Source: Acytostelium subglobosum LB1 (lineage: Eukaryota; Evosea; Eumycetozoa; Acytosteliales; Acytosteliaceae). Taken from it: a stretch of 64,000 bases of DNA. Positions within the stretch are counted from its first letter, which is position 1. The number at the start of each line of letters is the position of its first letter. Of the stretch, positions 4,785-61,220 are shown piece after piece. The notes below the pieces were generated by a model. It searched no databases. It had not been told where the DNA came from and saw nothing but the letters and a program-made list of their open reading frames with translations. The stretch lies in contig NW_012236528.1 of assembly GCF_000787575.1 (NCBI RefSeq), positions 1,055,552 through 1,119,551 on the forward strand, in the 5' to 3' direction. The translations under genes and the position numbers were made by a program.

Positions 4785-7700
4785 ATGGAAAGAGTCAAAC
4801 ACCTCAAGGTGCCGAACCAACATCAACGTCAGCGCTCGCAAAGCATTGACATGATTGTAATGGATGAAGTCAGCAAGATAATAAGTGACATGGACAACAG
4901 TCTACAACAGCAGCCACAGTCACAGTCACAGTCACAGTCACAGTTANNNNNNNNNNNNNNNNNNNNNNNNNNNNNNNNNNNNNNNNNNNNNNNNNNNNNN
5001 NNNNNNNNNNNNNNNNNNNNNNNNNNNNNNNNNNNNNNNNNNNNNNCCACAGTCACAGTCACAGTCACAGTCACAGTTACAGTCACAGTCACAGCAAACA
5101 CTACTACAGATACCACAAATACAGATGCAAGTGCCACTGGAATCACCTCGAAATGTCCGGTTCAACTCGATGAGCATGACATACTCGGTGCCGCCCTCGC
5201 CAAACACCTCATCGCCACCCTCACCCATCCTGCGTCATCATCAAAGCCTGTCAATACATCCGACCAACATTAACATCAACACGCCCTCACCCATCACTTC
5301 ATCAACATCACCATCATCTGTAACATTAAAATCGTCCAACAACAGTGTAACACCGCCATACATCGTCGGCAACTCGAGCCCACTCGAGGGCAGCTCGCCG
5401 TCACAGACGCCACCCCTGTCGGCACAGGACCAGATGCCATCGTCGGCCTACTATCCCAACCCGCATCACATATCCATCTCGATCTTGGACAAGGAGTCTC
5501 GCCTGAGCACTGGCTCCGACAGCTTCAATGCGTTCCCAGGCGAGCTCACCTCTAGCGGGTACATCAACAAGCGATCCAGTCTGTTCCTCAGCGTCCCACC
5601 CACGGCCACTGAGGGCGGCGTGGACAAGACTTCGACCAAGAAGGAACCAGAGATTCCACTGTATGAGCGCATAATGATGCGCCTGTCTACGCTGGTCGAG
5701 TCGTGGCCATGGCTCGTGCTCATGGTGCTGTCCATCCTCTTTATTATATTCATCGACGACGCTATTGGTGCGGCGGGCTCGCTACGCACCGACGCACTTG
5801 ACTACACAGTCCTGGCGCTGCGCATAATCATCCTAATCTTCTTCACATTCGATGTGGTGGCCAGCATCATCGTCTATGGCAGCCACTACTACAGCTCGCT
5901 ACCGCTACTCTTCTTGGACATTGTGTCGATACTCTCGATCCTGCCCAGCATCGTGTGCTTCTTCCTGGAGGAGCCACTGCCGTGGAAGCTACAGGTGTTG
6001 GTCATTGGCCAGTACGGCCGTATCATCCGTTTGTGCGGATCCTTCATTCGCGTCTCCCTGATATCCACGCTCCACAGACGACTGTGGCGCAATCGCAGGA
6101 CAAGCAGCCAGGACAACCTCCAGGTGGAGGCCAGTAAACTGGGCGACAAGCTGATGTTGGTCACTTTGAACAAGATAGTGCTGCTAGTGCTTCTGGTGTA
6201 CTTTGCCACGCAGCTGTTGACCTATCATCCAACTGGAAACAAGGCCATCGAGACCAATCTTGCGAACCTACAATATCAACAGATGAACCTGGAACCATAC
6301 CAATTTGCAGCGTCCGTACAGAACATATTGGCAACCAACAGCGAGATCCTAAAGTTGGTCATCTCAGGCCAAACATGGTTGAACAACAAGTCAGCAATCA
6401 ACCATCTACAATATGGCGCAGTCCTAGAGTACACCTATCAATCAACATCAATGATCCTGGACAACTCGGTATGTAGTCCATCCTTCCCTCGACCTCACTT
6501 GCTCACTCACTGACTCATTCAATCAATCAATCAAACATTACAGGATGCCATCAGATCATCCAGCATATACCATCTGTGTCTGACAATCTTTGTCATTGTA
6601 ATACTAATTATAGTCAACTTGATGATCATGCGCGACAGTTACAATCTGATCATTTATCCATTGGAGAATGTGATGGCAATCGTCAAGACTCTGTCCAAAC
6701 AGAATGCTGCCATACTAAAGAAGTCAGAGTCATTGGAGAATGCCACGGTTGCTGTCAAGGAGCCACATGGCAATAAGAATCATCACTCTGGACTGGACGA
6801 TGGGTCAGATGAAACTGGATTCCTCATTGGTATGCTTAGCGAGATTGATGGCTCACTTCAAGCGGCTAAAGAGAAGGTCGAAGAGGAGTCCAACCAGAAC
6901 TCCAAGCTCAAGAGCGAGATTGAGGACCTGAACGCCGAGAAGTATATACTTCAGATTCACTTGGATGTATGTAACATCTTCACTCAGCTAGCTGAGGAGC
7001 ATCGCCAGACCAGCATAATACTCATACACGACCTCCACCCACACTAGTCTGTTCTGCGAAGGATAGAGTTTGAGGACACTGTTGGAAAGCTGTTGAAGAA
7101 GAATATGGACTTGCTGGCGATCAATGCCAAGCCATTACCAGATGGAGTCAATGGAGATGATATCAAGTTCAAGACAGAGGACAACAATCCAGACAAGTTC
7201 ATTGTTTTGGCTGGCTCGTTGGACAAGCTGATCGATCGCCTGACCATCATCAACAACCATGACATGAAGTTTGCCAACGTCCTACTCATGACCTATAGAC
7301 GATTCATCTCGCCTGTCGAGCTGATGGAGCGTCTGATCATTCGCTTCTGTGTCACACCCGCGCTGGCACTGTCGCCCACCTTTTTGCAGATGGACGAGTA
7401 CGTCTCGGACTGGCGCAGGACCAAGCAGGAGCAGTCGCGTCTCAGCGTGTTCAACGTTATCAAGCTGTGGATTGGCAAGTTCTACTGGGACTTCAACGAT
7501 CCCAAGATGATTGAGTTGCTTAACTTTTTACTCAAGACCATCATGCCCTCGTTCAAAATGGATCGCTATGCTTCGCACCTCGAGACAGTGTTCCGTCGCA
7601 AGCAAGACGGCTACGTGCCACTTCGCGAGTACATCCCACCACCCATGCTCACACAGGAGGAGGTGGCCCAGATGATGGTCGTGGACGACCGCGTGCTCTT

Positions 7701-8412
7701 CAACTTTGACATCAACGACATTGCCATCCAGATCACGCTCATTGAGTTTGAGCAGTTCAAATGCATCCGCCCACACGAGCTGCTGGACCTGGCGTGGACA
7801 AAGGCAAAGACCAAGTACAAGACATCGCCCAGCATCTGCCGCTTCACCGAGCACTTTAACAACTTTAGCTTCTGGATCCAGATGCAGGTGGTCAAGCACG
7901 GCAAGGTCAAGGAGCGTGTGTCTGCACTCAAGCGCATCATCGCGTTGGGCGAGTGCTTTGTCAATCTGAACAACTTCTATGGCGCGATGGGCGTGCTGGC
8001 ATCGCTCGAGTCGGCAGCCGTCTCACGTCTCCAGAAGACATGGGATCAGCTGCCCGAGGCCTCAGTCGAATCATACCGCGCACTCCAGGCATTGCTGTCG
8101 CCCAATGGCAGCTACAAAGTGTACAGAGAGCGTCTGAACCAGACGTCATCGGCGTGCATCCCATACCTGGGCGTCTATCTCACCGACATTACATTCATCT
8201 ACGAGGGCAACCCCGACCACAAGGACGGTCTGATCAACTTCACCAAGTTGCGCGAGATCACCACGACCATCCTGTCCATCCTCCAGTTCCAAAACACGCT
8301 GGAGTACTACTATGAGCCCAACGAGAAGATCCGCTCGCAGCTGGACTTGCGCGCACCCAACTCAGACACCATCTACAAGATGAGTCTGACAGCAGAGCCA
8401 AGGAGAGCTTAA
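4785..8412 (+). CDS. RasGEF with six-pass voltage-sensor-like membrane domain
   Basis: Exons 4785-6468 (interrupted by the N gap), 6544-6966 and 7048-8412; about 1123 residues are visible. The Gln/Ser/Pro-rich start is followed by hydrophobic segments at about 5705-5760, 5810-5875, 5900-5967, 6010-6063, 6160-6225 and 6560-6625. The fourth has arginines spaced like a channel S4 helix (GRIIRLCGSFIRVSL), and a long loop separates segments five and six. A coiled coil (about 6700-6966) follows. Then come a RasGEF N-terminal domain (about 7195-7420) and a CDC25 catalytic domain (about 7660-8400, with HELLDLAWTK, KERVSALKRIIALGECF and PYLGVYLTDI). It should load GTP onto Ras-family proteins from a membrane. 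Whether the S1-S4 part senses voltage is inference. The start at 4785 is chosen because the Q/S repeat frame matches on both sides of the gap. Confidence 0.85.
4947..5046. other. Assembly gap of exactly 100 N
   Basis: One hundred N lie inside a CAGTCA hexamer-like repeat that codes for Pro-Gln-Ser-Gln. Exactly 100 is the usual placeholder for a gap of unknown size. It is not a multiple of three, so it artificially breaks the reading frame of the surrounding RasGEF gene: the frame to the left (from 4785) and the frame to the right (from 5047) encode the same PQSQSQ repeat. Confidence 0.95.
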
Positions 8413-8467: not shown

Positions 8468-10095
8468 CTACGAAAGGATTGGTGAATCGATGACTGCAAA
8501 GCCAGCAGCAACACCACCTTCATCGCTTGATGCTGTCTTTGTCCTTAGCAATATTCCTCCTTCTTCGTTCATAACGACCTTGTCTCCATTCCTACGATTG
8601 GTTGAATGAGTGAGTGAGTTAGTGAAAGAATGAATGGACGAGTGACTGGATCTTGGGCCAAGCTTACCCAATGTATAGTCCAAAGATTCCAAGCTCGTAG
8701 AGTGCCTCAATCTCGTGCAACTCACGCTCACGGATGATGAGTGTCTTGAATGGTCTTGGCTGGATGCGATCCATGAGGATGAATGATGAAAGTTCGTCAG
8801 GTGACATTGACTGAAGGGATGTGCGAACTTGGTCGTTGTATATGTTGTTGCCACCGCCCTCGCGCTGTGGCTTCATGACAAACAGCTCTGGGTGCTGGAT
8901 GGCGCGCTCAACCACTGCTGGATCGATGTCCTCCTTGGACAAACTGTACAGGCCAGTGAATGATTGACGCATGCGCTTCACGGACTCTTGATCCTGCAAC
9001 AGCTGCTCGAGCAGCTGTGGCTTGGCAATCGCCTGCTGGATCTTCTTGGCGCCGACCAAGTGGTTGGCAATCGATGGACACTTGATCGACAACGATCGCT
9101 CAATAACCAGACGAGCATCCCACTCAGCCTGAGTCGGATAGTCGGCGGGTGTGTAGCCGGCTCTAAAGTAGGATATGGCCACCTCGTGACCATCGATCAG
9201 CAATGCTCCAGTGTCTGCGCTGAGGCTGCCGCGCTCATGCACCTCTTGAAGCGTCCTCCTGATCATCTTGACCTTGTGTCTGTTCCAGAGATTGTACTCA
9301 ATGATCTTCTGGTCCCAAATGTTCCTCTCGCCCTTCTGCACGATCATCATGGCGACAGCCTTGTCATTGTTGTACAACTTGAATGCTTCGGCGATGGCTC
9401 TGGCAATGTTGACAGCAGTGTCGTTGACAGGCAGCTTGTCCAGAGGATACTGTTTCTCGAGCTGATTGTTGCTGATGAGGTACTTGTGCAGCTCGGACAC
9501 CTTTGACGAGAGACTGCCAAACGATGACGAGATGGTGTTGAGTTCGACCTGATAGAATCTCCATTCTCCGCTGTCCTCTGTTGAGTCGCCTGGTTGATGC
9601 AACATGTAATCCGATCTAAACAGTCCTAATTCAATCTGTTGTCTAACGCCCTCTGCATTGACCTTTCTGTGAATGTCCAACAATAATTGAGTAAATGTAT
9701 CTTGTACACTTGATTGATTGTGTGATTTAGTGAGTCGAGGGAGGTTAGTCAGTCAATGCTCAATGATGCCACAGCATTCATTCATTCATAGCTTACTTCT
9801 TCAATGTATCTTGGATGAAGTTGTAGTTGCGACTTAGGTGGTGTACGAGCAGGTTGTAGTCTGTGGCCAATGACTTGGCTTGGTGGAATAGTTGATCAGG
9901 GAAACGATTGGGCAATAGTGATATTGGAAGATGTGTGACGATTGGATAGGCAATTGCATCGCTCTCGGCCTGTGTCTTCTTCTTCTCAAAGACTAAAGAG
10001 TGGCCGAATGCCCAATCTATAGCCTGTTCAGCAATCTCCTTTATATTGCCAATTGATTGATAAGCTGTTGTTGTAACAGTTGTAGTTTTTGTCAT
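8468..10095 (-). CDS. gshB: Glutathione synthetase (eukaryotic type)
   Basis: Three minus-strand exons, 10095-9797, 9708-8668 and 8591-8468, give about 487 residues, close to the roughly 475 of the family. The protein catalyses ATP-dependent joining of gamma-glutamylcysteine and glycine in the cytosol. Family hallmarks are FRSDYMLHQ, the [14 protein letters not shown] substrate-loop region, [14 protein letters not shown] (the glycine-rich ATP-grasp loop) and a C-terminal segment with [11 protein letters not shown] and the alanine-rich loop [13 protein letters not shown]. The first acceptor is an AAG and not a CAG, but only it keeps frame and family sequence ([17 protein letters not shown]). 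The ATG at 10095 is preferred because the longer open frame begins with a non-ATG codon. The symbol follows dictyostelid usage. Confidence 0.95.
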
Positions 10096-10417: not shown

Positions 10418-12112
10418 TTAGTTTGTTACCAACTTGGGTGGTGTAGCAGGAGGTGATTGATAGTGAGAACTCAACCCTTGAAATATACTAGATAGAGACA
10501 CTGTGGAAGTAGCAGTAGTAGTAGTAGTAGTAGGGACAGGTGATTTTTGAGTGCTATCCAATGAATTGGTTATTGGTAGCGGTGATTTGGCTTGTTCAAT
10601 GGTAGTAGTAGTACCATTGCTCGAGGTAGGAGGAGGAGGTTTGTACTTTTGAATACCTCTTGATCCATTAACCAAGTACATCACTCCCTTGATAATCCTA
10701 ATATGGTCAAAGGTAAAGAATACTTGGTGGCTTATGATGGTGGACCTCTTTGTTATCATTGATATTCTGATAAAAAATAATGGATAGGTTAACATGAGGT
10801 AGAGATCTCCAGTGAGGCTGTCAAAGCATGATTTGCTATTTAGGATACTCGTGTCAATCATGAATTGGTCGGTGATGTCTTCAGATGACTTTGCAAAGGG
10901 ATTGAATATGACGATACGTCCATTGACCACCACATGGATCTTCCCAAGATGGATAAAAGTGCAAGTTGGGATACCTTTAGACAGTTCATCAATGTCACCA
11001 ATATGATCACATTCCTTGGTGATGACATTGAGCCTGTCAACCCTTGTAAGATACTTCTCTTCCATTTGGCCACCAATTATGTAAATGTAGTTGTTGGGAA
11101 CGTCTTGTAGAACAGAGATATTCATTCCACCTTCAAGAACGGTCTGTGTCCATGAAGGGAACTTCCTTGTACGTGAGAAGATGTAATATTGCAAATACAT
11201 CCTGGATTTGGATAGTCCTGATTCTCCAAAGACATAGTGATCATCACCAACTGAGCATGATTGAAAGATGGGACCCTTCACCTGAGTAAATGGCGTCCTC
11301 TCGAGTTCAACAATACTTCCATTATTGGTATCATACAATAATGGCAATCCCCTATTATCCACCATGAAGATTTGAGTATCCTTTGATAAACTCTGAGGAC
11401 ACACGGAGACATTGTTCTTGACAACCTCCATCAATGACACACTATCAGAATTGAGAATGAGATGCTCAGGTTGATTGAGGGTATCCTTGGTCTTGACTAG
11501 ATACTGCTGTAGCTTCTTGAGACGACTTGTTTCTTCTTTGGATCCGCTTGTATGGTTGGCAGAGTCTTTGATTCCCTCCATGAATGACCCAAATGATACA
11601 ACCTTGTTGACCAATTTGATTAAGTCGACAGCAGTCATGTCCACAATACAATGCTCCACTCCATCACAATGGTCGAGGAGACTCAAAGTAGAGTTGAGAT
11701 CTTTGATGACCTTCTCCACAGTTGATTCACCATCCTTGATACTTTTGATTAATGGCTGCTTCAACTTCTCTTCTTCCTTGTTAAGCTGTGTGTGCAACTC
11801 CTGGAAGACCTGACTAAGTTGGCTGACACTGTCGGTATGTGACTTGTGGACAGTGGACAAGGACTTGAGGATCGTCCACAATGTTTGAATATGATCTCTT
11901 TCCTTCACATAGATTGGAGTAGACTTGTTGGACAATGATGCCTCTGTCGCTAGCTTATGACCCAAGTGGTCCAATGTCACACACTCTTGACATACCAACT
12001 CCTTGTCATCCAGACACAGAAACATCTGTTTCAGATTATGTTTAACACAATGTTCACTGACCACCTCAATCTTAACCTCCTCGGCTTTATCACTTTTGGT
12101 ACTCTCAATCAT
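10418..12112 (-). CDS. B-box zinc finger / kelch-like protein, array member 1
   Basis: A single exon of about 564 residues. The ATG at 12112 is preferred over 12151 because the extra 13 codons are AT-rich and untypical. A B-box zinc finger lies at about residues 20-55 (CVKHNLKQMFLCLDDKELVC, then QECVTLDHLGHKL) with the expected Cys/His spacing. Next comes a helical, coiled-coil-like stretch of about 150 residues. The C-terminal half has kelch/beta-propeller-like repeats with the pattern NNYIYIIGGQ, TRVDRLNVITKECD and LGKIHVVVNGRIVIFNP. The tail is Ser/Thr/Pro-rich. It shares this order with the two genes at 13.7-17.6 kb. B-box proteins of this type are an expanded dictyostelid family; the substrate or partner is unknown. 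Confidence 0.85.
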   Translation of the reverse strand: MIESTKSDKAEEVKIEVVSEHCVKHNLKQMFLCLDDKELVCQECVTLDHLGHKLATEASLSNKSTPIYVKERDHIQTLWTILKSLSTVHKSHTDSVSQLSQVFQELHTQLNKEEEKLKQPLIKSIKDGESTVEKVIKDLNSTLSLLDHCDGVEHCIVDMTAVDLIKLVNKVVSFGSFMEGIKDSANHTSGSKEETSRLKKLQQYLVKTKDTLNQPEHLILNSDSVSLMEVVKNNVSVCPQSLSKDTQIFMVDNRGLPLLYDTNNGSIVELERTPFTQVKGPIFQSCSVGDDHYVFGESGLSKSRMYLQYYIFSRTRKFPSWTQTVLEGGMNISVLQDVPNNYIYIIGGQMEEKYLTRVDRLNVITKECDHIGDIDELSKGIPTCTFIHLGKIHVVVNGRIVIFNPFAKSSEDITDQFMIDTSILNSKSCFDSLTGDLYLMLTYPLFFIRISMITKRSTIISHQVFFTFDHIRIIKGVMYLVNGSRGIQKYKPPPPTSSNGTTTTIEQAKSPLPITNSLDSTQKSPVPTTTTTTATSTVSLSSIFQGLSSHYQSPPATPPKLVTN

Positions 12113-12151
12113 TCTTTCTTCTATTATAATATGACTAAATATATATAACAA

Positions 12152-12677
12152 TGTTAAAGTATATTTAATGATTGAATGATTGAAGAATGATGGAGGAGGA
12201 ATTAAACTTTAATGTTCATTTGGATATTCTATCCATTACACAGATTTGTACAACATATTATCCACGGAAACAGAGGCCCATTTTTGTGATCAACCAAGAT
12301 TTGGTCCCAGCAAAATAGTGAGATCTGGATCTCAAATTGGGTTTGATTGTTTTGATCATCCAACCACTTGCAAAATCAAGTTGGCCAAATGGTTAACTGA
12401 TCATTCACTCCGCCTCCAGCGCACAGTACGAAACTGCATCACTCACCTACTTCGCGATCAATGTGAAGGGCAATTTGGGACTGATTGATTGATTGGAAAC
12501 TCAAGTGATCACTGGCAACCAAACAAATGGTGAACAATATTATTCTATCATTCAATCATAGTATTAATCAATGAAACTATCAATAATAACTTTCATGAAC
12601 GTTATCAACGAGTTGGTTTGATCCTTGTAGTAGTAGGAAAGAGTAAACAACATAGATATATTTTTATTTCTTCTTGA
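12152..12677. other. Spacer between B-box gene 1 and the decayed copy
   Basis: About half a kilobase that includes the promoter of B-box gene 1. An 80-codon plus-strand frame (12246-12488) contains Cys and Trp residues but has no recognisable domain and poor context. No RNA gene recognised. Confidence 0.35.
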
Positions 12678-13310
12678 TTATTTTTTGGCTTGCCCAAAGA
12701 GGTCAGGCCTAACATTGTCAAACAAAGACATTGGTTTTCCATTTCCGTTAATTTGTCGACCGTTGTTAAACAAAGTTGTAGGTGCTCCAAAGGATGTAGT
12801 CTCTGGCGGATTTCCAAAGATTGAGTCCCTGGTCCATTTGCCAAAGATAACATCATACTTCTGGACAAACATATTATCATTCGATGTCAAGTATATACAT
12901 TGGCAATAGATTGTAATGTTGTCAGTTCTCCATGGTAAGAGGATTGTTGGTACAGTTGTAACTATTGTCAGAACTTTGGTCTCCATTGACAATCTGAGTA
13001 ATATTTCCGAATTGTCCACACCTATTAAAAGATAGAGACATTCTTGGTATGCATTAAAAATCGCTTTTCCTAACAATTGATTGTAGCTAACATTGAATCT
13101 GTTGGTGACGTCACCTCTGTTTGTTGACTAGATCATACTCAAAGATGCGTCCAGAGAACACCACAACCAATAGGTCGTTGTAGATGAATGCTACCAACGC
13201 GTTCGAAAGTGTTGTTGCTTATATCGAACTTATCAATTCTGGTCAGGTGTCCAGAGAGCGTTCTGCCTCCAATGAGATAGATATAAAAACCAGCGATCGG
13301 GAATAATACT
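12678..13310 (-). pseudogene. Truncated B-box/kelch-like copy
   Basis: This minus-strand stretch matches only the C-terminal third of the neighbouring gene at 13712-15571. Segments such as IYLIGGRTLSGHLTRIDKF and NNTFERVG are recognisable, then SFIYNDLL and GRIFEYDLVNKQ, then a clean 132-codon frame (13076-12678) ending in an FG-containing tail (SIFGNPPETTSFGAPTT). Relative to the intact paralog, about ten residues are missing after NNTFERVG (the YIPEIGGSTP part) with a frame change there. A second single-base shift occurs near 13133. No B-box or coiled-coil part is found upstream. It looks like a 5'-truncated tandem duplicate, though a still-expressed C-terminal piece cannot be excluded. Confidence 0.75.
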
Positions 13311-13711
13311 GATATTGATTAAGTGATGATTTAAACTCTCAAATAATGATGGTACTCTTCATATGTATGATTGTAGGTGTGGATAATGAAGATTAGGATG
13401 GGGTGTACTCGAATACAGTCTTGAATATTCTCATGAAGCGGGGGTATTCTTTCCACTCAATTCATCTCTCAACATTGGTAGAGTAGAGTTGTATATCGAG
13501 ATATATATATTAATTAATACAAATATATAAATAGATTTGAAAATGATAAGTACATCTTATAACGACTATTTATCTTCAGCAATGGATAAACCAATCAAAT
13601 ATTAATTTTAAATAAATTAATAATCAATCAATAAAATTAAAATAAAATCCATTCCAGGGTATTAACTAAGTTTGTATTTTATTAAAAGTATTTAATTTAG
13701 ATAAGAATTAA
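13311..13711. other. AT-rich spacer between B-box copies
   Basis: Very AT-rich, with TATA/TTAAT runs at 13500-13690. The part next to the decayed copy (13311-13450) may hold unrecognisable remnants of the same repeat domain. The rest resembles the 3' flank of the intact gene that ends at 13712. Confidence 0.35.
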
Positions 13712-15571
13712 TTATTGGCCAAAAGCATCAGTAAGTTGAAACAAAGAAGTGGTTGCTCCAAAGCCATTTTGAAGGGGAGGGAGAGGGGGATTGCCAAAGA
13801 CATTGTCCTTGGTCCAAATGCCAATGGAGGTACTATACTTCTGGACATTCTTTGTTTGGTTGGAAGTCAAGAAAATATTTGGATATATAAAGGACATTGT
13901 TTCAGTCCTCCAAAAATGAGGAAACGTTGCTGGTACAGATGTCAAGATGACCAATTGTTTGGTCTCCATAGACAACTTGAGAAGTACCTCACAGTGGTCC
14001 ATTTGTACCAAGAGATAGAGTGTTTCTGAGTATCTATTATAACAAGCCTTGCCTTGAAGATGATTGGAATCTACATTGAATCTGCTTGATACATCTAAAC
14101 TCTGATTGTTGGCAAAGTCATATTCAATGATTCGTCCATTCGATACCAAATAAAGAAGATCTTTGTAGATGAATGAGCAGATTGGAGTGCTTCCGCCAAT
14201 CTCGGGAATGTAACCTAGTCGTTCGAAGGTGTTGGTTGGTATATTGAACTTGTCTATCCTTGTCAAGTATCCTGCCGCCACTCTTCCACCAATGAGATAG
14301 ATATTTGAATAGTCCTTGAAATTGTAAAGTACTGATATTCTCTCTCCTCCTTCTCCAGTGGTGATGTCTCCTTGGTGGGTGTAAGTTCCTATATAATTTG
14401 AGAAACAAGAGTAGGTCTTGGAAGATATAGAGCCACCGAATATATAGATCCGACCACCACAGTCAGCAAATGAATCTCTTGTGTAGAGCCTTGGCTCGGA
14501 GTCCTCTACAGAGTATTTTCTCCAACCACCTTTCTCTGTGTCAAATGTTGACATGTATCCATCAGAATTGATTCTATAAAGATATTTGTCTGGCATCTTG
14601 AAGTCGTCGGGGATAGGATCAATTGATACTCCTTGTTGAACAAGTTGGGAAACATTATTCATCAACTGACTCTGGTCGAATTTGAAACCAAACTTGTCTG
14701 GCTGTTCATATTTGGGACGATGATTCTCTTCGTAGTTCATAAGATGATGTTGGAACAGATAGAGCCGAATCTCTGGTTCATTTGGATCTTGATACACTCT
14801 ATCAGTTTCCTCCACTTTGGAATTCTTGATCAAATTGTCCAAAGAGTCGGATGAGTGGATGGCAGTGACCAAAAATTCAATTGAGTTGCTTGGTATCTGA
14901 GGTAGTGGTTCCCCAGTACCATTGGGAGCCGACTTCGATTCCGTTACACACTCCTCGCTATCATCTTCCTCTAAACTCTCTGTTGCCTCTTTTTCATCAA
15001 CAACAATCTTAACTTTATCCTCATCCTCCTTCACTTCAGATTCTTGATGTATGAAAGATTCCCACCAACACGAGTTGGTATCGCTCTGGTTGGGGAGGCC
15101 AACTAGTAGGAGTAGGGAGTTGACTTCCTTTATGGCCTTCTCCAGTGTTGCCTCTGTTGCTTCAATGTTGGTAGTGAGTGGCTTAATCAGCTTGTGCTCC
15201 TCGAGAGTCAGAGCTTCATGTAGATTATGGAATAGCTGGTGTATGACCTTCTCTTGATCGGTGAATTCGTGATGGGCCTTTGCCAGACCCTTCATTGTTG
15301 TCCAAACATAATTCAAACGTTTGGTGTGCTCCACCACAATAGGTGCTTCTTTGTTGGCCATGTAATCAGAGTTGGCAATCTTGTGTCCAAAGTGTTTGGA
15401 AGATACACAACCTGAACATATCATATCATTGTCATCCAGACACAGGAACTGTAGTTTCTTGTCATGTTTATTACAACGACCAAAGGCCTTTCCAACATCC
15501 TTCACTTCTTTCTCATCCTTCTTCTCCTTCACCATCTCCTTATTGGTAGTAGTAATAGTTGCACCAAACAT
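13712..15571 (-). CDS. B-box zinc finger / kelch-like protein, array member 2
   Basis: A single exon of 619 residues. A B-box lies at about residues 30-65 (CNKHDKKLQFLCLDDNDMIC, then SGCVSSKHFGHKI), followed by a helical region rich in Leu and charged residues. An acidic Glu/Asp insert (about residues 175-215) is absent from member 1. Kelch-like repeats fill the C-terminal half: GRIYIFGGSISSKTY, SNIYLIGGRVAAGYLTRIDK and KDLLYLVSNGRIIEYDF. The last 30 residues contain FG dipeptides (NVFGNPP, GFGATTSLF, DAFGQ). The decayed copy at 12678 shares this tail, so that copy derives from this member. Function unknown beyond the domain order. Confidence 0.85.
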   Translation of the reverse strand: MFGATITTTNKEMVKEKKDEKEVKDVGKAFGRCNKHDKKLQFLCLDDNDMICSGCVSSKHFGHKIANSDYMANKEAPIVVEHTKRLNYVWTTMKGLAKAHHEFTDQEKVIHQLFHNLHEALTLEEHKLIKPLTTNIEATEATLEKAIKEVNSLLLLVGLPNQSDTNSCWWESFIHQESEVKEDEDKVKIVVDEKEATESLEEDDSEECVTESKSAPNGTGEPLPQIPSNSIEFLVTAIHSSDSLDNLIKNSKVEETDRVYQDPNEPEIRLYLFQHHLMNYEENHRPKYEQPDKFGFKFDQSQLMNNVSQLVQQGVSIDPIPDDFKMPDKYLYRINSDGYMSTFDTEKGGWRKYSVEDSEPRLYTRDSFADCGGRIYIFGGSISSKTYSCFSNYIGTYTHQGDITTGEGGERISVLYNFKDYSNIYLIGGRVAAGYLTRIDKFNIPTNTFERLGYIPEIGGSTPICSFIYKDLLYLVSNGRIIEYDFANNQSLDVSSRFNVDSNHLQGKACYNRYSETLYLLVQMDHCEVLLKLSMETKQLVILTSVPATFPHFWRTETMSFIYPNIFLTSNQTKNVQKYSTSIGIWTKDNVFGNPPLPPLQNGFGATTSLFQLTDAFGQ

Positions 15572-15835
15572 TCTTACTATTGATTGATATTCTATGTGAT
15601 AGTTGTGATTATTGAGTATGATTAATGATCACTATCATAACGAAGATGTGTTATTGCATAACATTATCAGATTGGTGACGATCATCCATTCATTCATTCA
15701 TTATCAAGATCCGGCTGGGGTTGTTCCAACAATCACACACACATCTTACAAAACGAGTGTGTGTATCAATCACCTGGCGGAACACTATCAAACTAAACAT
15801 ACAAGATGTATCATGAATATGGTCAAGCGATATGT

Positions 15836-17635
15836 TTATCTTCGCTGTGCCTGTAGTTGTGGAGGGAGTGGCAGTGGCGGATTAACAACTTGTGGCAGCA
15901 CCTGGTTGTTGTTGTTGTTGTTGTTGCCAAAGACAAACACTGCTGGTGGTTTGGCCGGTGCTGGTTGTGCTGGCGCAGCAATTGGCACAGCTCCACCAGC
16001 AGCTCCAACACCTCCAAATATGTTGAGGGGCTGTCTAGAATTGTCCATCAGTGTTGTCCATGTATCCTGTGCAATGTTGTATCTCATCACTGTATTGGTC
16101 GCCGGTGTATACAGATACAATGCATCGTTGATGATCGCCACCGAGTGCGTCTTCCACACCACCTTGTCGAGCAGTGGCAGCTGCGCCAGACATGTGAACC
16201 TCTTGGTGTTCAACGAGAGCTTGATAAAGACCTTGAGGTTGTCGAGCAAGTAGATGTGGCCGAGGCCGTCGTAGCACACGCGGCTCGACAGATGGATCGT
16301 GTCCAGGTGGAACTGAGGTGTTATGTCCACGCACTGTCGATTGAACATGTCATAGGTGAGGATGCGACCCGTGCAGACAATGTAAAGCAGGTCATTGAAC
16401 AAGAATGTGCACGTAGGTGTGCCAGTGCCCAGCTCCTCGATGCTGCCAATCCTGTCAAACACCTTGGTGTGTACATTGAGTCGGTCGATGCGCTTGAGGT
16501 ATCCACCGCCGCCGCCGCCAACAATGTCGGCAGCAGGTGAGCGTCCTCCAACCAAGTAGATGTAGTTGGAGCCATCGTAGCACACAGCCGCGCTGTTTCC
16601 TCCGTCGCCAGTGGTGACCTCAGCGTGGTCATCGTATATCTTGTTGTTGAGCGAGTAGCGCGAGTACGTCTTGGTCAGTCCTGAATCGCCAAAAACGTAT
16701 ATATAGTCTCCGACGCGAATGAGTGAGCTTGAGGTCTGTGAGCGCATCTCAATGTCCTTGGCCGTGTGCTGTGTCCATGTTGCGGTGCCAGTGTGGAAGG
16801 TGCTGAGCTGGCCAAGCGCATTAAGCATGTAGAGCAACGATGACTGTGGCTTCAGAGGCTCGGCCCTCAGTGTGCGATCAGTTGTCATGTCAAAGCCTAG
16901 ATTGATCGTCTTTGTAATGTCGCTCTTCAGCCTGTCCGACTGGAACTTGATCGAGAGGAAGTCGGGCAGCGAGTAGCTGACGTTGTTGAACGAGACCAAG
17001 TGATGTCTGAACTGCCCCAGCAGGTTGTCCTGGTCGCCAACCACAACGTCCTCCTGGATGGGCGACTGATTGGCCGTGACGAATGCCTCGATTGTGCCCG
17101 AGGACTTGATCGACGCGATCAATGGGGCCATGGCCGTGACGCTCACCTGCTGCAGTCCATGCTGTTGCGCGGCTGCCTCTTGATTGTTGGCGGGGTTGTT
17201 CACGCCGCCAATGAGCACAAGTATCGAGTTGACCTCTTTGATGATGTTCTCGATGGTCGACTCGGCCTCTTGACGCTTGGATACGAATGGCTTCTTCAAC
17301 TTGTGCTCTTCGATCGTTAGCATTGCGTGTAGCTCGTGGAAGACCTGCTGAACACGACTCTCATTGTCGACCAATGACTCGTGCACCTCGCCCAGATCCT
17401 TTAGCATGCGCCACAGTGCATGGAGACGATCCCTATGCTCTGCCACTATCGGTGTGGCCTTGTTTAACAACGATGCTGCATTAACAAACTTGTGAGCAAA
17501 GTGTTCTGTCGTCACGCAGTCTGAACAAATCAAAGTTCTATCATTCGTGCACAAGAACTTCAACTTCTTATTATGTTGTGGGCATTTGTCAACCATCTGT
17601 TCATCAGTATTGACATGTTTGTTATCCACCTCCAT
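15836..17635 (-). CDS. B-box zinc finger / kelch-like protein, array member 3
   Basis: A single exon of 599 residues. A B-box lies at residues 19-55 (CPQHNKKLKFLCTNDRTLIC, then SDCVTTEHFAHKF), followed by a coiled-coil-like stretch. Kelch-type repeats follow: IYVFGDSGLTKTYSRY, NYIYLVGGRSPAAD (with a Gly run), YLKRIDRLNVHTKVFDRIG and NDLLYIVCTGRILTYDM. The tail is Ala/Pro/Gly-rich with FGGVGAAGG, a poly-Asn run and a Pro-rich end. Its coding DNA is clearly more GC-rich than members 1 and 2, so the copies have diverged or been maintained differently. Intergenic spacing to member 2 is only about 260 bases. Confidence 0.85.
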   Translation of the reverse strand: MEVDNKHVNTDEQMVDKCPQHNKKLKFLCTNDRTLICSDCVTTEHFAHKFVNAASLLNKATPIVAEHRDRLHALWRMLKDLGEVHESLVDNESRVQQVFHELHAMLTIEEHKLKKPFVSKRQEAESTIENIIKEVNSILVLIGGVNNPANNQEAAAQQHGLQQVSVTAMAPLIASIKSSGTIEAFVTANQSPIQEDVVVGDQDNLLGQFRHHLVSFNNVSYSLPDFLSIKFQSDRLKSDITKTINLGFDMTTDRTLRAEPLKPQSSLLYMLNALGQLSTFHTGTATWTQHTAKDIEMRSQTSSSLIRVGDYIYVFGDSGLTKTYSRYSLNNKIYDDHAEVTTGDGGNSAAVCYDGSNYIYLVGGRSPAADIVGGGGGGYLKRIDRLNVHTKVFDRIGSIEELGTGTPTCTFLFNDLLYIVCTGRILTYDMFNRQCVDITPQFHLDTIHLSSRVCYDGLGHIYLLDNLKVFIKLSLNTKRFTCLAQLPLLDKVVWKTHSVAIINDALYLYTPATNTVMRYNIAQDTWTTLMDNSRQPLNIFGGVGAAGGAVPIAAPAQPAPAKPPAVFVFGNNNNNNNQVLPQVVNPPLPLPPQLQAQRR

Positions 17636-28366: not shown

Positions 28367-31300
28367 CTACTTCTTGTTGTGTGAGAATATTGAGAGAGCT
28401 GTGGCCTTGATCTGTTTGGTCTTCATGCGCAGACTGCTTGATGATGTTGACTTCTCTTTGGTTGCTGCTGGTGTCTCAGTGGTGTTGTTACCGCCACTGC
28501 CACTGCTAACTCCTGTGGTCGATGATGAGGATGAGGACGAGGAAGAAGAAGCCACGGGAGCCTGTGAGATAATTGATCTTCGCTTGACTGGTGTCTGTCG
28601 AGTGGTCGATGGAAGCTGTGACGATGATGGAGTTGTAGTTGTGCTTGGAGACTCATTGTTCGCGTTGCCTGGTGTAGCTGGTAGCTTTCTTGATGGTGGC
28701 AGTGGAGGTGGTCTGTGTGGTGGAAGCTGTCTTCGTACCGGAGGTGTCGGGGCACGTTTAGGTGAGACAAACTTGGGTGCTGGAGGTGTTGGTCTATTCG
28801 ATGATTTCCATGATGTGGCCGTATTGCTTGTTGTTGACGTCGTTGTCGTTGGAGTGCTGGTCGATGTCTCTGTGCCTGTGCCTGTGTTGGTGGAAGTTGG
28901 TATGGGGTCTTTGCCATCCTTGTCCAACGATACTGTCTTTGGAGTTGAAGTTGGAGTGGGTGGACGATTGGAGGATGATGGAGTGGGTGGCCTGTTGGAT
29001 GAGACTGGGGTCGCGGGCCTGGACATGCTCCTCCTCTTGGTGTTGCCAGCAAGTGGCTGAGCATCACCTGAAAGACTGGATGTCATTGGTAGTGGTGAAC
29101 TTGTCTTTCTCTGCATTCCACCAGCGGGTGGTTTGAGCATGCTGTTGCCAGTCAAAGGTGTTGGTGATCCATTCTTTGGAGATGCTCCAGATATCGATGG
29201 CTTCCTGCCGACGCCCAGTCCAAACATGTGTGAGGGTGACTTGTTGCCACTTTGATGTGGCTGGGTACTAGGCGGGCTAGGCAGATCATTGATGGTATTC
29301 TCCGTGATGATGTTGCCAATCATTGACAGTAGCTCACTCTTCAATGATGCTATCTCACTTGTTACATGCTGTTTGATGTTGGTCTGCAACTCTGTGAGTT
29401 CACTCTTTAGGTTGGCAACAGTTTGTTCCAGCTCCTTGATTGACTGTGAGTTATTCGACTCCCTTGTCACCAAGTTGTTGTTCATCATATCTCCAATGTT
29501 CGGTTGACTCAGTGTCCTCTTGAGTGCCGCAATGAACTCTGGTATATTGTCACTGATCATGTCCACTAAAGTAGTAATTGGGTGATTGAGTGAGTGATTG
29601 AAAGAGTGAGGGATAGTTCCAATAAGAGACATACCGTCGTCGTTGACAACCATTGTACCGCTGTAGTCTTCATCGTTGTCTGAGAGAAGACTGTCGTCGT
29701 CGTGGACGATGAATGTTGAGTTGTCGTGGTCGTCCTTTAAGGCTGATGTGGCGTCAGCTCGTGTGGCGGCAGCAGCCGATCCAACAACAGTGATACTCTT
29801 CTTCTTTTTCATCAAAGCAGCGCGCTTCTTATTACACTCCTCAATCAATGGTCTCAACGACTCTATTGATCCCGAGGTAGAATGTTGGACAATGAATGGG
29901 TGCTGGTGGTGGGAAGGTCGATGGAATGTTAGTGAATGATTGATTGATTGAGTGAGTGATGGAGGGTAGTTACCGAGAGTAGTTCCATTGCAGATGGTCG
30001 TTTGGCAGGGTCCTTTTGACAACAGCATGCTATCAGGTCGTTGAGCTCCTTGCTAAAGTGATGTGGCTTGGTGAGTGTTGGTGGGTTCTTGTTGGGGATC
30101 ATCAGCATGGCACGTGTTGGGGCCATCTGGTAATATGGAGGGAAGCCCTCAGCCATCTCAATGATCGATATTCCCAAACTCCATATATCGCATCTATTAT
30201 CATATGGCTTCTTCTGGATGATCTCGGGCGGCATCCACAAGGCTGGAAGGTAGGCATGTGATGGTGTCAGTGATCAATCAATAAATCATGATATGGTCAA
30301 GGACATACGTGTTCCAATGAACTCTGTGGACTTGGACAATTCGTCTTCGAGTTGTGCACTCACTCCAAAGTCTGCCAGCTTGACTATACTGTCCTCGTTG
30401 AGTAGGATGTTGGCAGCCTTGATATCTCTATGTATGATCTGATTGGCATGGAGGTAAGTCAGACCCTTGAGAGCCTGGCTTACAATGGCCGATATCTGTT
30501 TCTCTGTCAATGTCTTCTCAGTCAACTCAATCATATCTCTAATTGATCCCATACTACAATAGTCCATCAAGATCTAATCATTGTGTTTGAGTGTGAGTGT
30601 GTTAGTGATGGTGAAGGGGCTGGGATCATTCCAGGACCCAAACATACCCATAGTTTGTCACCAGAGTTACAACATCCAAAGTAGCTGACGATGTTGTTGT
30701 TCTTGCACTTCTTGAGGATGGTGATCTCTTTCTCGATGGACTCTGAATCTTTGAGCGGGATGACTTTGACGGCCAACTCAAAGTTGTTGTCCCGGTGGAG
30801 GGCCCGGTGAACTGTGCCGAATGAGCCAGTGCCAAGCAACTCCTGGAACAGGAACACTTGGTCCATATTCTCCTCGCCAGACCATTTGTAGTCAAAGTCC
30901 ACATGCACCTTGTGCTTGACGTTGAATGGCGAGCCCACGTCAATGTCTGGTGTGGCGCCGGCACCTGATGATGAGGGCGCGGGCAAGGGCGCGGCATTGG
31001 ATGCCTTGCGTTCGCGCATCTTATCCTTCTGTATCTTCTCTGCCTTTTTCATTTGCCTTGGCCACATTCTTGTTGATGTTGGACGATCCGGTGCTGCGCA
31101 CGCACTTGGCCAGCGAGTCAAAGATGATCTTGCGCTCCTCCTCGAATCTGTCCCTCTCGCGCTGAAGTGTCTCGCGCTCCTCTCTCAGCCTGGCCTCGCG
31201 CACCTCCACTTCACGCAACTGTTCGTCCATTGACTTTTTATACTCCATCTGTTTCCTGGCTGATGATGCGCCACCACTACTGATCAGTGGTGAGTTGGTA

Positions 31301-36250: not shown

Positions 36251-39200
36251 TTAACCCCTAAAGACAGAGATAGGCTGCGCACTAAGTGTAAGCGGGGTGT
36301 TGGTGCACCCCCTTACTTTATTTGGAATTAATTGTGCACAGTTTTGGAAAGTTACAAGTCAATTGGTATTGACCTGTTTATTGTAGGGTAAGGATAACAA
36401 GAAAGAGCCACAGATGACTAGACGGAGAAGGTGATCGAGCCCAGCGTCGGTTGCCAATAAGTAATGACATGATCCCTAGTGATGGACAACAAGTGTGATG
36501 GACTATGGCAACTAATCTGATTGATGGATTAATGATGGGATGAACCAGGTGTTTGATTGATCAATTGAGTGCATCAACAACATTAGTAAATGTGGTCAGT
36601 GAGTAACATCAGTGCAGACCGGACCTTGATGAGGACCTGGATCCGTCTCTTGAAGAGCGAGATACCTTTGGTGGTGTTCTAAGAGTTGGTCAATGGACTG
36701 GAAGGTGTCCGCTGTCTGCAGTGGCATGGGTCAGTGACAAATATTGTTGTCCTATCCATCATCGTCTGGGTTGTTGTTGATCCGCTTGTCGACGATCTTT
36801 TGTTGAGGTGGACGATGATGATTGTGATGATTGTGATGATTGTGATGATTGTGGAGATGTTGACTCCTTCCAAATGTATGAATGTTGGNGGTGTTGGGGT
36901 TGGTGCGGCACAGCTGGCAACGATGCTTGTTGTTGCTCCACCAATGATGGCGATGTTTGGGACAACGATGGTGGAATGTATCTCNTGCGCTTCTTAAATT
37001 CTGGAAGTTTGGTCAGGACCACATCTGGATACTGATCCGACTGTGTGGATGTCAATGATCCAGCAGCTTGCNTGATAAGGTCTATATACCTGATAACCTG
37101 ATAAAAAAAAAGGAGCAGGCGGAAAACTGCTCCGAGCAGCGAGGTTCTGAGGCGGCGCAATGGATGTCTCACTTGGAAGTGGATCAAGTTGGTGTATCTT
37201 CAAGTGCTTGTTGTGGTAGATGNTTGAACACTCTTGATGCAACACTATATGGCAACACAGGCAGACGTTGGTGGNATCTCCTCGATTGTCTCTATTCGTC
37301 TCTCCCTTGTCAACACAGTGTACGCACTTGAGAAGTCTCCGATTTTGTTTAAAGTCTGTGGCCACATCCATAGCATGTTTGGAAATGGTTGGCTTGTCAA
37401 CATTGGTGCCAGAGGTAAACATGAGGTTGTTCTTGGCAATCTTGATCCTTTGCTCTTGGGAGAAATGATGGAAANTTTGATGGCGAGGCATGTAGAAGAC
37501 GTTTGTGGTGTTGACATCTCTGCCCTGGGGCAGCGTGCAGCGTGGCAGTGGTGGGAGAAGATATCCGTTGATCGCCCCCAGCAGGTGGTCTCTGAAACAA
37601 ATGGGCTTGTCTGGTTGGCAAATCATGTTGAACAGTACCATTGAATTCCAGGCCAATATATAAAGGGCGTCATGAAGAAGTACCCTCCAGAAGGTACGAG
37701 CTCGATGAACATTCCTGTTGGGATTGATGACCATCTTGGTGCTGTCCACATAGTTATGACTAACATTATAACAGAAGACAACCCTTGGTGCCTTGCGGGT
37801 AACGGTCATATGACGTGAGGATCTATGTTGTTGGTGTTGATAAGAGTGTTAGTACATTGTTATTGTACGTTGTTACACCATCGATCTCCTTCATTCATGA
37901 TCCAAACGCACCTCTTCTCGTGGCCAACTNTGTCGTACATGCGCAAGGGATTTGGGATGTTGGTTAGGAAGTAGCAAACCTTCTTATCCCTTGCTCTCCA
38001 GGCTATCGCCGTGCTGAATGAGTTGGCGCCGTATACAACGGTGTCCACAAATTCCTTGTCGCTGCTTGCCTTCCTTCTGAGGACGATGCACTGCTGTCGA
38101 TAGTTCTCCTGCTCCTCAGTGCTCAACCTCAGCCAGTAGTTGACTTGATTGCTTCTCTTGCTGCTGCTGCTGCTGCTGCTACCTCGGGTATTGTTGTTGT
38201 TGTTGTTGTTGTCATCCTCTTCATCTTCATCGTCATCCTCATCTTCATCTTCATCAAAATCATAGTCGTCATCCTCACTGTCGTTGTCCAACCAATGCTC
38301 CATGGTTTGCTTGGCATGCTTCGCCCTCCTATTCTTTCTTTCCATCTGTTTCTTTATCATCTCGTTGTAACTCCTCTCCAAGTACTGATCATTGATAAAT
38401 AGAGGAGTGAATACATCAAAAGAGTTTGACCTCGATAGAGAAACAATGAAGTACTGGTTCCTCTTGGATAGTTCCTGAACGTTCTCATAGGTACCAAGAA
38501 CTCCTATTGAAGTTGACGTGTGTGTGCAAGGATGGTGTCAATGATAATGTGATCCAAGGTGATCCATCATGATCGTGCTAAAAATGTTGAACTTACCTGC
38601 GTCAATGGCGAAGCATCTGCTCTCCGTGGGTGTGGACTCTCCAGGCAGTTGGACTGCGTGGCGCATCATATCGTCCATGATCAGTTTGTTGACTGGCACT
38701 CCTTCCGTGCCATTGGCCTTGATGACATACTCCTGGGAGAAATGGTAGATGTACTTATTCTCATCCACTAGCTTCCATGTTACGCCGCATCGGTCAGCCT
38801 TCCCAGTGATCATCTTCTTTCCTCCTCCAAATCCCATCCACTTGTAGAGATCATCGTCCAAAGAGAGGAAGGGTGACTTCCTATAGAAGTTCTTGATGAT
38901 CAAGTTGAGGTCTGTCCGTAGCCATTCGTAGCTTGTCTGTTGGTTGGACTCTCGATTGGCAAAGCCAGGCATGTGAAGACATCTATCATATTGGAATGTA
39001 TATGAATGATTGATTGAGTGATAAGTAATTGAGAGATAATTGATTGATCGATTGAATGTGATTGAATAGACTGACACTTACCGATGGATCTGCTTGAATC
39101 TGTACCAAGACATCAGTGATTGGTACTCTGGTTTGTAGAGACTCAGTCTGAGACTAGCCTTTTGTTGGTGATTCCAGCATTCTTTGATACTGTTCACTCT

Positions 39201-40372
39201 GTCCAATCCCAAATGAAAGAAGATGGCAAAGTAGGCCTTGAGCTCTGTCTCTGAGATATCTGAGCCCCTTAGATACCATGGCATGGATCTTGGAGCTTCA
39301 TCTTCCTCGTTGCTATCATCATCATCGTCGTCGTCGTCATCAGTGATCATATCATCAAGGTCAAATTCATCATCACTGTCGCCATCATCCATGTCCTCGT
39401 CCTCGTCCTCGTCCTTGTCATTGGACTCAGTCTCATCGTCTTTGGCATCTTCATCTTCATCATCCTCCTTGTCCAAATCAAACAATTGGCCAGAGTTAGC
39501 CGCCACCAAGTCTGAATGAGTTCTTGAAACTGGATTCAGTCTCTCTTCATATTTCTTCCGACCAACAGCACGGTACCTGTGATGTAGTTATCTACGTTAG
39601 ACCATCTGATCCGTACCAATACTATTGTTGTGCCACTGGTGCCATCACTTACTCATTGGTTGCCCGATGGAGAGCACCAAGAACAGTCTTGAAGTAAAGT
39701 TTGAATAGATATGGCGCACCTCCCTGACGAGCCTTGCTCAGCTTATCAGCCATCTCTTTAGTAAGATGATCGCTCTGTACATATGATGTGTCGAATGGTT
39801 GTGTCTTCATTCGCTCATCGAGGTTCATCTCTCCCCTCTCCTTCGCTGTAGGACTCTTCTTCTTTGTTGCATTTGTTGTTGTTGTTGTTGTTGTTGTTGT
39901 TTGTTTGTTCTTTTTCAATGCTTGCTTTGTCTTCTTGGATCTTGAGCGAGTGATCACTGGGTACACATCCTCATCCTCTTCNGCTACATCTGCATCCATT
40001 GATGGATGCTCTGCGTTTTGATGCCATTGTTCATTGGGTTTTAGTGTATATATATCCCCTCGAACAAAGTCTGTTTAGGTGTACAGTATGAGAATAAAGT
40101 CTTGAGTGTGTATATCAATCAATTATTCAACTCCCAACATACTGTATCTGTTTGTATATTGTTTCTTCCTACTATTGGATGATGTTGCATGCTCTGTATC
40201 TCTATCTGTGTTTGTTGTAGAAGACATGGCGTGTTGACAATGAAATTGAACAAAGACAAAGAGCATGGGATTGTTAATGTNGTTAAATTAAATTTAATTG
40301 ATAAAAAAGGAAATTAGGGGTACTTATTACCTATGGGGTACACCAACACCCCAACTACACCTTAAGGGTTAA
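36251..40372. mobile_element. piggyBac-type DNA transposon, TTAA-flanked
   Basis: The element runs about 4.1 kb between TTAA at 36251-36254 and TTAA at 40369-40372. Both ends begin with the family signature after TTAA: CCCCTAAAG on the left and CCCTTAAGG on the right. The left end continues GATAGGCTGCGCAC, close to the canonical piggyBac end. A subterminal inverted repeat occurs near both ends: GGGGTGTTGGTGCACCCC at 36294-36311 and its reverse complement with one mismatch at 40335-40352. The minus-strand transposase fills the interior. Isolated N bases occur at 36889, 36985, 37072, 37223, 37275, 37475, 37930, 39982 and 40281, all within the element. It looks complete, so recent activity is possible. 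Confidence 0.88.
36759..39999 (-). CDS. piggyBac-type (PGBD/DDE) transposase, multi-exon
   Basis: Minus-strand exons: 39999-39653, 39576-39082, 38982-38597, then from about 38488 to the 37.9 kb region, and a last large part 37809-36994 with a further tail frame to 36759. The first four join in phase; the last junctions are not resolved. Family features in order are KAYFAIFFHLGLDRV, the LMSWYRFKQIHRC block, LSLDDDLYKWMGFGG (first catalytic Asp region), CFAIDAGVLGTYE (second) and VVFCYNVSHNYVD (third). ARTFWRVLLHDALYIL follows, with a C-terminal Cys-rich zinc finger (LLKCVHC, VCLCC, HQECS) ending IYHNK. Acidic low-complexity inserts are unusual for the family. Single N bases come from assembly ambiguity. 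The protein should cut at TTAA and reintegrate the element. Confidence 0.8.
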
Positions 40373-60700: not shown

Positions 60701-61220
60701 GGATTGGCACTAACAGGGGTCGTGTTGACTGGTTCGCGCTTGTTGTACAACACCATCACATTGTTGGTGCCTAGGCCAACGCGACAGGCAGTGGCTGCGC
60801 CATTCGCCTGAGTGGAGCCGTACTCTATTCCTTGTTGAGGGAACTTGGCAGTGTTGGGCAATGACAGACCACAGGCATTGGGTGTCCATTGACTTGCAGT
60901 CAACGTGAACGTAGTGAATGGATTGGATTCAAAGCTACTAAAGTCTGCGCCAATGTAGGTCTTTGGTGGTGATGGTATCGAAGAGTTGAAGTACTTCAAT
61001 ATGCTATTAGTGAGTGGCGTTAGTCATGTGTGTGGGTTGGAGTGCGGCAACTGTTACCGATGTGTGGCCGCATAAAACTTTAATGCGGCCAGTGTGAGCT
61101 AATTACTTACTTTGGATCGATTGAGTCCCAATTGGTAGTTGATGGTAATGCACTATGTACACATGATACACTAACAAGTACCAACAACAATAACATTAAC
61201 ATTGATGATGAGTTCATCAT
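57739..61220 (-). CDS. Secreted heparinase II/III or alginate-lyase-like enzyme with Thr-rich stalk
   Basis: Two exons, 61220-61111 and 61003-57739, joined in phase; 1124 residues. Exon 1 encodes a signal peptide (LLLLLVLVSVSCVHSA). The central region has the alpha-toroid signatures of heparinase/alginate lyases: WNIWNGNNWTPVLSSGAIYL and DGVFVEGLAHYTSMNVDNI, followed by a beta-sandwich-rich half. Asn-X-Ser/Thr sites are common. The last 120 residues form a long Thr/Ser/Pro stalk of mucin type, ending in a hydrophobic tail (FIVLVLVSIVTIIITIM) that suggests a GPI anchor or membrane helix. Likely role: cleaving uronate-containing polysaccharide at the cell surface or in the matrix. The substrate is inferred, and the catalytic residues were not matched one by one. 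Confidence 0.8.

Follow-up and report, generated by a model that had tools for sequence, protein, structure and literature searches.

The gene at positions 4785–8412 of the Acytostelium subglobosum sequence analyzed here (a stretch of 64,000 nucleotides, referred to below as the window) raises the question of whether an activator of Ras can be built permanently into a membrane and, if so, what its membrane domain might contribute. Guanine nucleotide exchange factors for Ras (RasGEFs) are usually described as being recruited to membranes. Proteins of the family (of the SOS1/CDC25 type, including the 25 Gef proteins of Dictyostelium discoideum) have a RasGEF_N and a CDC25 domain in common with the product of this gene, for which an initial annotation had proposed a fusion of these two domains to a six-helix, voltage-sensor-like membrane domain.

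The available parts of a 2005 survey (PMC1273635) describe 25 RasGEFs in D. discoideum, half of them without informative additional domains. A membrane-spanning domain goes unmentioned in sections 9 and 10 of that survey, and within its available text the word ‘transmembrane’ occurs once, in the legend to Figure 1, where segments predicted by TMHMM2 are drawn as blue bars on the D. discoideum RasGEFs. Because that legend mentions such bars, orthologues of the present gene may be known yet unremarked. According to the available parts of a 2021 survey (PMC8923023), five dictyostelids have 27–29 Ras GEFs each and, when GEFs of every family are counted, 79% are conserved among the five species, so that an orthologue is likely to be on record; the word ‘transmembrane’ is absent from the main text of that survey. 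Among the matches listed in the open-licence literature, part of which was crowded by papers on channels, there was no paper describing a RasGEF with a voltage sensor or with six helices.

The window has a G+C content of 43.5% and, judged by its poly-asparagine stretches, short GT-AG introns and types of gene, a dictyostelid look. Modeling of the RasGEF gene placed it on the plus strand, as three exons separated by two GT-AG introns, which bears out the location originally assigned to it. Exon 1 (4785–6468) encodes a low-complexity N-terminus, the first five membrane segments (S1 to S5) and most of the loop between S5 and S6; exon 2 (6544–6966) encodes the end of that loop, S6, the helix that follows it and the first part of a linker; and exon 3 (7048–8412) encodes the remainder of the linker, the RasGEF_N and RasGEF domains and the stop codon. 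Intron 1 (6469–6543; 75 bases, GTATGT...ACAG) contains an in-frame TGA, and intron 2 (6967–7047; 81 bases, GTATGT...CTAG) is open in frame until the TAG of its acceptor site. The coding region of exon 1 is interrupted by an assembly gap of 100 Ns (4947–5046) with CAGTCA-type repeats on both sides. The reading frame shifts by one base across this gap, so its length of 100 is nominal and not the true one. The spliced product comprises 54 residues ahead of the gap and 1069 behind it, with no stop before position 8410; residue numbers given below start at the first residue after the gap.

The window has ten single ambiguous bases (N) in all, of which nine fall within 36889–40281, perhaps reflecting polymorphism or a collapsed repeat. 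A glutathione synthase ORF on the minus strand (8664–9683) is convergent with the RasGEF gene, and is followed by three adjacent ORFs, also on the minus strand, that match B-box and Kelch (10418–17635) and may represent a local duplication. Further along are a PAK-like ORF (30567–31121), which combines a P21-Rho-binding domain with the beginning of a protein kinase domain, and an ORF of 1086 residues (57739–60999) with a threonine-rich tail, a hydrophobic C-terminus and zero Pfam matches at E ≤ 0.001.

Coding log-odds, for which ten further long ORFs in the window supplied the codon frequencies, amounted to 0.32 per codon for exon 1 (in frame after the gap), 0.51 for exon 2 and 0.62 for exon 3, as against −0.44 for intron 1 and a neutral 0.05 for intron 2. 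The 19 codons of exon 3 that precede its first in-frame methionine (7048–7104) scored 0.54 per codon, near the mean of the exon. A single fused protein is favored because this signal runs through exon 3 upstream of that methionine, and the continuity of coding signal over the exon junctions agrees with the original assignment of the membrane and GEF parts to one gene. The locus might instead yield two products, namely a membrane protein whose frame ends in intron 2 when that intron is retained, and a soluble RasGEF made on its own from the methionine near 7100. The open frame and neutral coding score of intron 2 would allow for this, but the coding signal ahead of the methionine and the GT-AG sites carried by both introns argue against it, and we regard such an arrangement as very improbable. 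Since intron 2 has a length divisible by three and a frame open to the acceptor TAG, its retention would give a membrane protein extended by 26 residues and lacking the GEF, and a membrane-only product of this kind is possible. An integral-membrane RasGEF, as predicted from the gene model and the coding signal, is well supported.

The GEF domains named in the initial annotation were readily confirmed. Pfam matches far above the respective cut-offs identified a RasGEF_N (REM) domain at 7204–7521 (PF00618; 78.1 bits versus a cut-off of 28.3, E = 7.1e-22) and a RasGEF (CDC25) catalytic domain at 7717–8253 (PF00617; 194.3 bits versus 23.1, E = 2.1e-57), both on the plus strand. A search of the PDB with the last 447 residues of the protein returned 28 distinct sequences at E ≤ 0.001. 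SOS1 ranked first (E = 4.3e-43) and aligned across residues 45–410 of the 447, with both domains included. The GEF module looks intact and complete, and exchange activity is predicted from its domains.

Five strongly hydrophobic segments were identified upstream of the linker, all on the plus strand: S1 (5710–5769; WLVLMVLSILFIIFIDDAIG), S2 (5809–5880), S3 (5905–5967; LLFLDIVSILSILPSIVCFFL), S5 (6151–6207) and S6 (6574–6630), with peaks of mean Kyte-Doolittle hydropathy (over 19 residues) of 2.48, 2.52, 2.42, 2.37 and 3.14, respectively. The fourth segment (5995–6072), also on the plus strand, is amphipathic and lies below the hydropathy threshold of 1.4 used for listing, so that five of the six hydrophobic segments originally described are recovered by hydropathy and the remaining one is an S4-like amphipathic helix. 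Shuffling of the whole protein did not discriminate (five segments were observed at a threshold of 1.6, and 1000 shuffles gave a mean of 2.2 and a maximum of 6); it is the strength and order of the segments, and not this count, that leads us to consider them other than a product of chance.

Inspection of the translation revealed a Phe-x-x-Asp motif in S2 (Phe266 and Asp269; 5842–5853), an aspartate in S3 (Asp291; 5917–5919) and three arginines in the fourth segment (Arg325, Arg328 and Arg335; 6019–6021, 6028–6030 and 6049–6051), after which comes a basic stretch. Residues of these kinds occur at the charge-transfer center of voltage sensors (a phenylalanine and an acidic residue in S2) and in their S4 helix. 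The arginine spacing noted in the initial annotation is thus present, with positions i, i+3 and i+10 ahead of the basic run, although it is sparser than in a classical S4, where every third residue is basic. These features also bear on another possible role for the helices, which is that they only keep the GEF at a membrane (the plasma membrane, contractile vacuole or an endosome) and transmit no signal. RasGEFs are commonly controlled by membrane recruitment, according to the available parts of the 2005 survey (PMC1273635), and a plain anchor would be in keeping with that; six helices with sensor-like residues at set positions, however, would seem to exceed the needs of an anchor, and we judge that role to be distinctly unlikely.

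The loop between S5 and S6 (6220–6564, plus strand; spanning intron 1) is long, as had been described, at about 90 residues. It is hydrophilic, with one N-glycosylation sequon and zero cysteines, is predicted to be extracellular, and gave zero Pfam matches up to E = 10. The balance of basic (K+R) to acidic (D+E) residues is 7 to 3 in the S4–S5 loop and 5 to 2 after S6, on the putative inner side, and 1 to 4, 1 to 2 and 4 to 6 in the putative outer loops (S1–S2, S3–S4 and S5–S6, respectively); the N-terminal flank is neutral (6 to 6) and the S2–S3 loop is uncharged. This pattern fits the positive-inside rule with a cytosolic N-terminus, from which we infer the topology. The six-segment layout would suit an ion channel, here with a GEF as its tail. 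On reading the S5–S6 loop, however, no selectivity filter (GYG-like or other) was recognizable, and the membrane part has no match to the Ion_trans family, which together make a channel extremely improbable.

Profile searches of the membrane part against ion-transport and voltage-sensor families, as suggested in the initial annotation, failed to place it in any of them. In Pfam, neither the membrane part within the 1069-residue protein nor the 340-residue membrane part taken by itself matched Ion_trans or another family up to E = 10, and S1–S4 alone matched only PalH (E = 1; 8.8 bits versus a cut-off of 34.1). NCBIfam likewise gave no match to the membrane part, and a phmmer search of the PDB with the 340 residues returned nothing at E ≤ 10. 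When S1–S4 alone was compared with the PDB (177,635 sequences), the one match at E ≤ 10 was the proton channel Hv1, at an E value of 5.1 that is not significant by itself. In that alignment, FxxD of S2 lies opposite FxxE of Hv1 and two S4 arginines are aligned; the S3 aspartate is one residue off, and a glutamine stands opposite the first of the three S4 arginines of Hv1. Hv1, for its part, is not known to carry an enzyme.

We compared S1–S4 with two profiles built from bacterial matches to PF00520, both of which are far from any eukaryotic sensor. From 56 loci (L017–L072), four (L018, L019, L021 and L022) were excluded beforehand and 52 were aligned; removal of a duplicate (L071) left 51 sequences for a mixed S1–S4 profile, 18 of which were picked by hand for a Kv-type profile. 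Against the Kv-type profile (HMMER), S1–S4 scored 8.5 bits. Shuffling within each segment gave at least this score in 22 of 5000 trials, and shuffling with the segment order reversed did so in 19 of 5000. None of 203 length-matched membrane windows scored as well, nor did any of the 78 scored among 80 other membrane ORFs (81 found in 1.2 Mb, less one ion channel), the best of which reached 6.2 bits. The same was true of an earlier, smaller set of 18 negatives from L001–L102 (0 of the 17 scored), which is not a clean set, in that some of its loci carry channel fragments, and which the 80 ORFs supersede. Positive controls scored well above 8.5 bits: Hv1 reached 15.0, and five bacterial sensors that were not part of the Kv training set reached 39.8–48.2.

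The mixed profile (HMMER) gave S1–S4 a score of 2.6 bits, which is not significant: 521 of 5000 shuffles, 703 of 5000 reversed-order shuffles, 4 of the 80 membrane ORFs and 17 of the 203 membrane windows did as well (and 0 of the 18 in the small set), and Hv1 scored 29.8 bits. With hhalign, the observed score was matched by 1 of 400 shuffles for the Kv-type profile and 4 of 400 for the mixed one, at probabilities of only 8 and 11%; the former alignment covers 20 columns, all of them within S3, and the latter 45 columns. In the HMMER comparison, the start of the S4-like helix aligned to the S4 of Kv sensors. Because two profiles were tried and the Kv-type subset was chosen by hand, we treat this likeness as suggestive. 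The voltage-sensor-like character originally ascribed to S1–S4 is thus retained in part: the Kv-type profile sets the region apart from most shuffles and from all 78 scored ORFs, but the mixed profile in HMMER does not, Pfam gives no Ion_trans match, and the comparisons weakly suggest a divergent, voltage-sensor-like S1–S4.

Sensor modules coupled to enzymes do exist, as the initial annotation had pointed out. The examples described in the available parts of PMC10651576 are the phosphatase Ci-VSP and protist adenylyl cyclases that combine a sensor with a K+ pore. As proposed for the present protein, Ci-VSP/TPTE proteins have a four-helix sensor joined to a cytosolic signaling enzyme (PMC10651576); here, in contrast, S5, S6 and their large loop follow, a RasGEF stands in the place of the phosphatase, and control by voltage is hypothetical. 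Four S4 arginines are named for Ci-VSP (PMC10651576), compared with three here. The adenylyl cyclases of Plasmodium, Paramecium and Tetrahymena, which we compared by description (PMC10651576), also join a sensor-like membrane part to a signaling enzyme in single-celled eukaryotes, but they are described as having a K+ channel pore, of which none is recognizable here, and their enzyme differs.

A sharper form of our preferred reading, with which it overlaps in probability, would have S1–S4 act as a working sensor through which membrane potential sets exchange, as in the voltage-sensing phosphatases. The acidic residues of S2 and S3, the S4 arginines and the weak similarity to Kv sensors are consistent with this, as are the fusions of a sensor to an enzyme already known from protists and an ascidian (PMC10651576); Dictyostelium amoebae, moreover, have been described to migrate in electric fields. 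The S4 charges, however, are few and irregular, and the glutamine opposite the first of the three Hv1 arginines (in the alignment at E = 5.1) speaks against a functional sensor, so that voltage gating appears unlikely. The fuller proposal, in which membrane potential acts directly on RasGEF activity via the divergent S1–S4 and thereby gives electrotaxis and excitable Ras waves an electrical input, is in our estimate quite unlikely. The membrane part may be similar to domains of six helices in the cyclases of algae and ciliates.

Between S6 and the GEF module lies a charged helical linker (6808–7110, plus strand; spanning intron 2) that may form a coiled coil, although by a simple heptad score its 74 residues were matched by 151 of 2000 shuffles. 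Pfam searches with the piece after S6 gave matches below the cut-offs only, the best being to the helical or coiled-coil families DivIC (E = 0.003) and COG3_N (E = 0.0046). Stretches after S6 (YPLENV and DETGFL) resemble a HAMP linker by eye only. Pfam HAMP did not match after S6, and a whole profile from 30 bacterial HAMP matches scored 0.3 bits; of its two half-profiles, one had its score equaled in 1364 of 5000 shuffles and the other in 985, and their best places in the whole protein lay elsewhere, for which reasons we rejected HAMP.

Structure prediction of the segments by AlphaFold2, run without an alignment, returned helices where they were expected, but at a confidence (pLDDT of 52 for the exon 1 part and 48 for a longer part that included 25 residues of read-through intron 1) that leaves the folds not usable. 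One helix, at low confidence, runs from S6 into the cytosol, and the linker appears as a long helix, again at low confidence. A Foldseek search with the exon 1 model gave zero matches at E ≤ 0.001; its five matches (all at E > 5, and including TRPM5 and SLC9C1) are meaningless given the low confidence of the model. The predicted helix leaving S6 would also suit a receptor for a ligand or contact, in which the 90-residue S5–S6 loop is the sensor and S1–S4 is a scaffold or relic. The length, hydrophilicity and glycosylation sequon of the loop and its want of a visible pore are in line with such a role; the loop nevertheless lacks a Pfam match up to E = 10 and is free of cysteine, and no ligand is known. 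We consider a receptor of this type somewhat unlikely.

Relatives of the membrane part were sought with single-sequence patterns in viral and genome contigs, and also in plasmids and in 200 genomes belonging to a single bacterial phylum; none was confirmed. These scans covered viruses, bacteria, archaea and plasmids, and so are silent on eukaryotes, and one of the empty results carries no weight of its own. The piece from S6 to the end of the protein had no relative in the viral contigs.

The reading we prefer, to which we give about an even chance, is that of a membrane-embedded RasGEF with a divergent, voltage-sensor-like S1–S4 that is not a channel and that relays a membrane cue. Its parts differ in strength: the predicted integral-membrane RasGEF is solid, and a divergent voltage-sensor-like S1–S4 without a pore stands at about even odds. 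In this preferred scheme, a single protein would be an exchange factor for Ras-family GTPases that resides permanently in a membrane, with the first four helices forming a divergent voltage-sensor-like bundle and the S5-loop-S6 hairpin occupying the place that a pore would take in a channel. Alterations of the membrane domain (a shift of the arginine-bearing S4, or a rearrangement or pairing of the hairpin) would reach RasGEF_N/CDC25 by way of S6 and the cytosolic helix, and would change the access of that module to Ras at the same membrane.

A polytopic RasGEF would couple a membrane event directly to Ras, with no adaptor between the two. In Dictyostelium, an excitable network has Ras at its core and depends for its behavior on RasGEF activity (as described in the available parts of PMC10933043). 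Given that position of Ras and the migration of the amoebae in electric fields, sensor-like helices on a RasGEF would open the question of how fields reach Ras to a direct test, by the removal of one gene, and in a social amoeba with such a gene Ras could be switched on directly by something sensed at the cell membrane.
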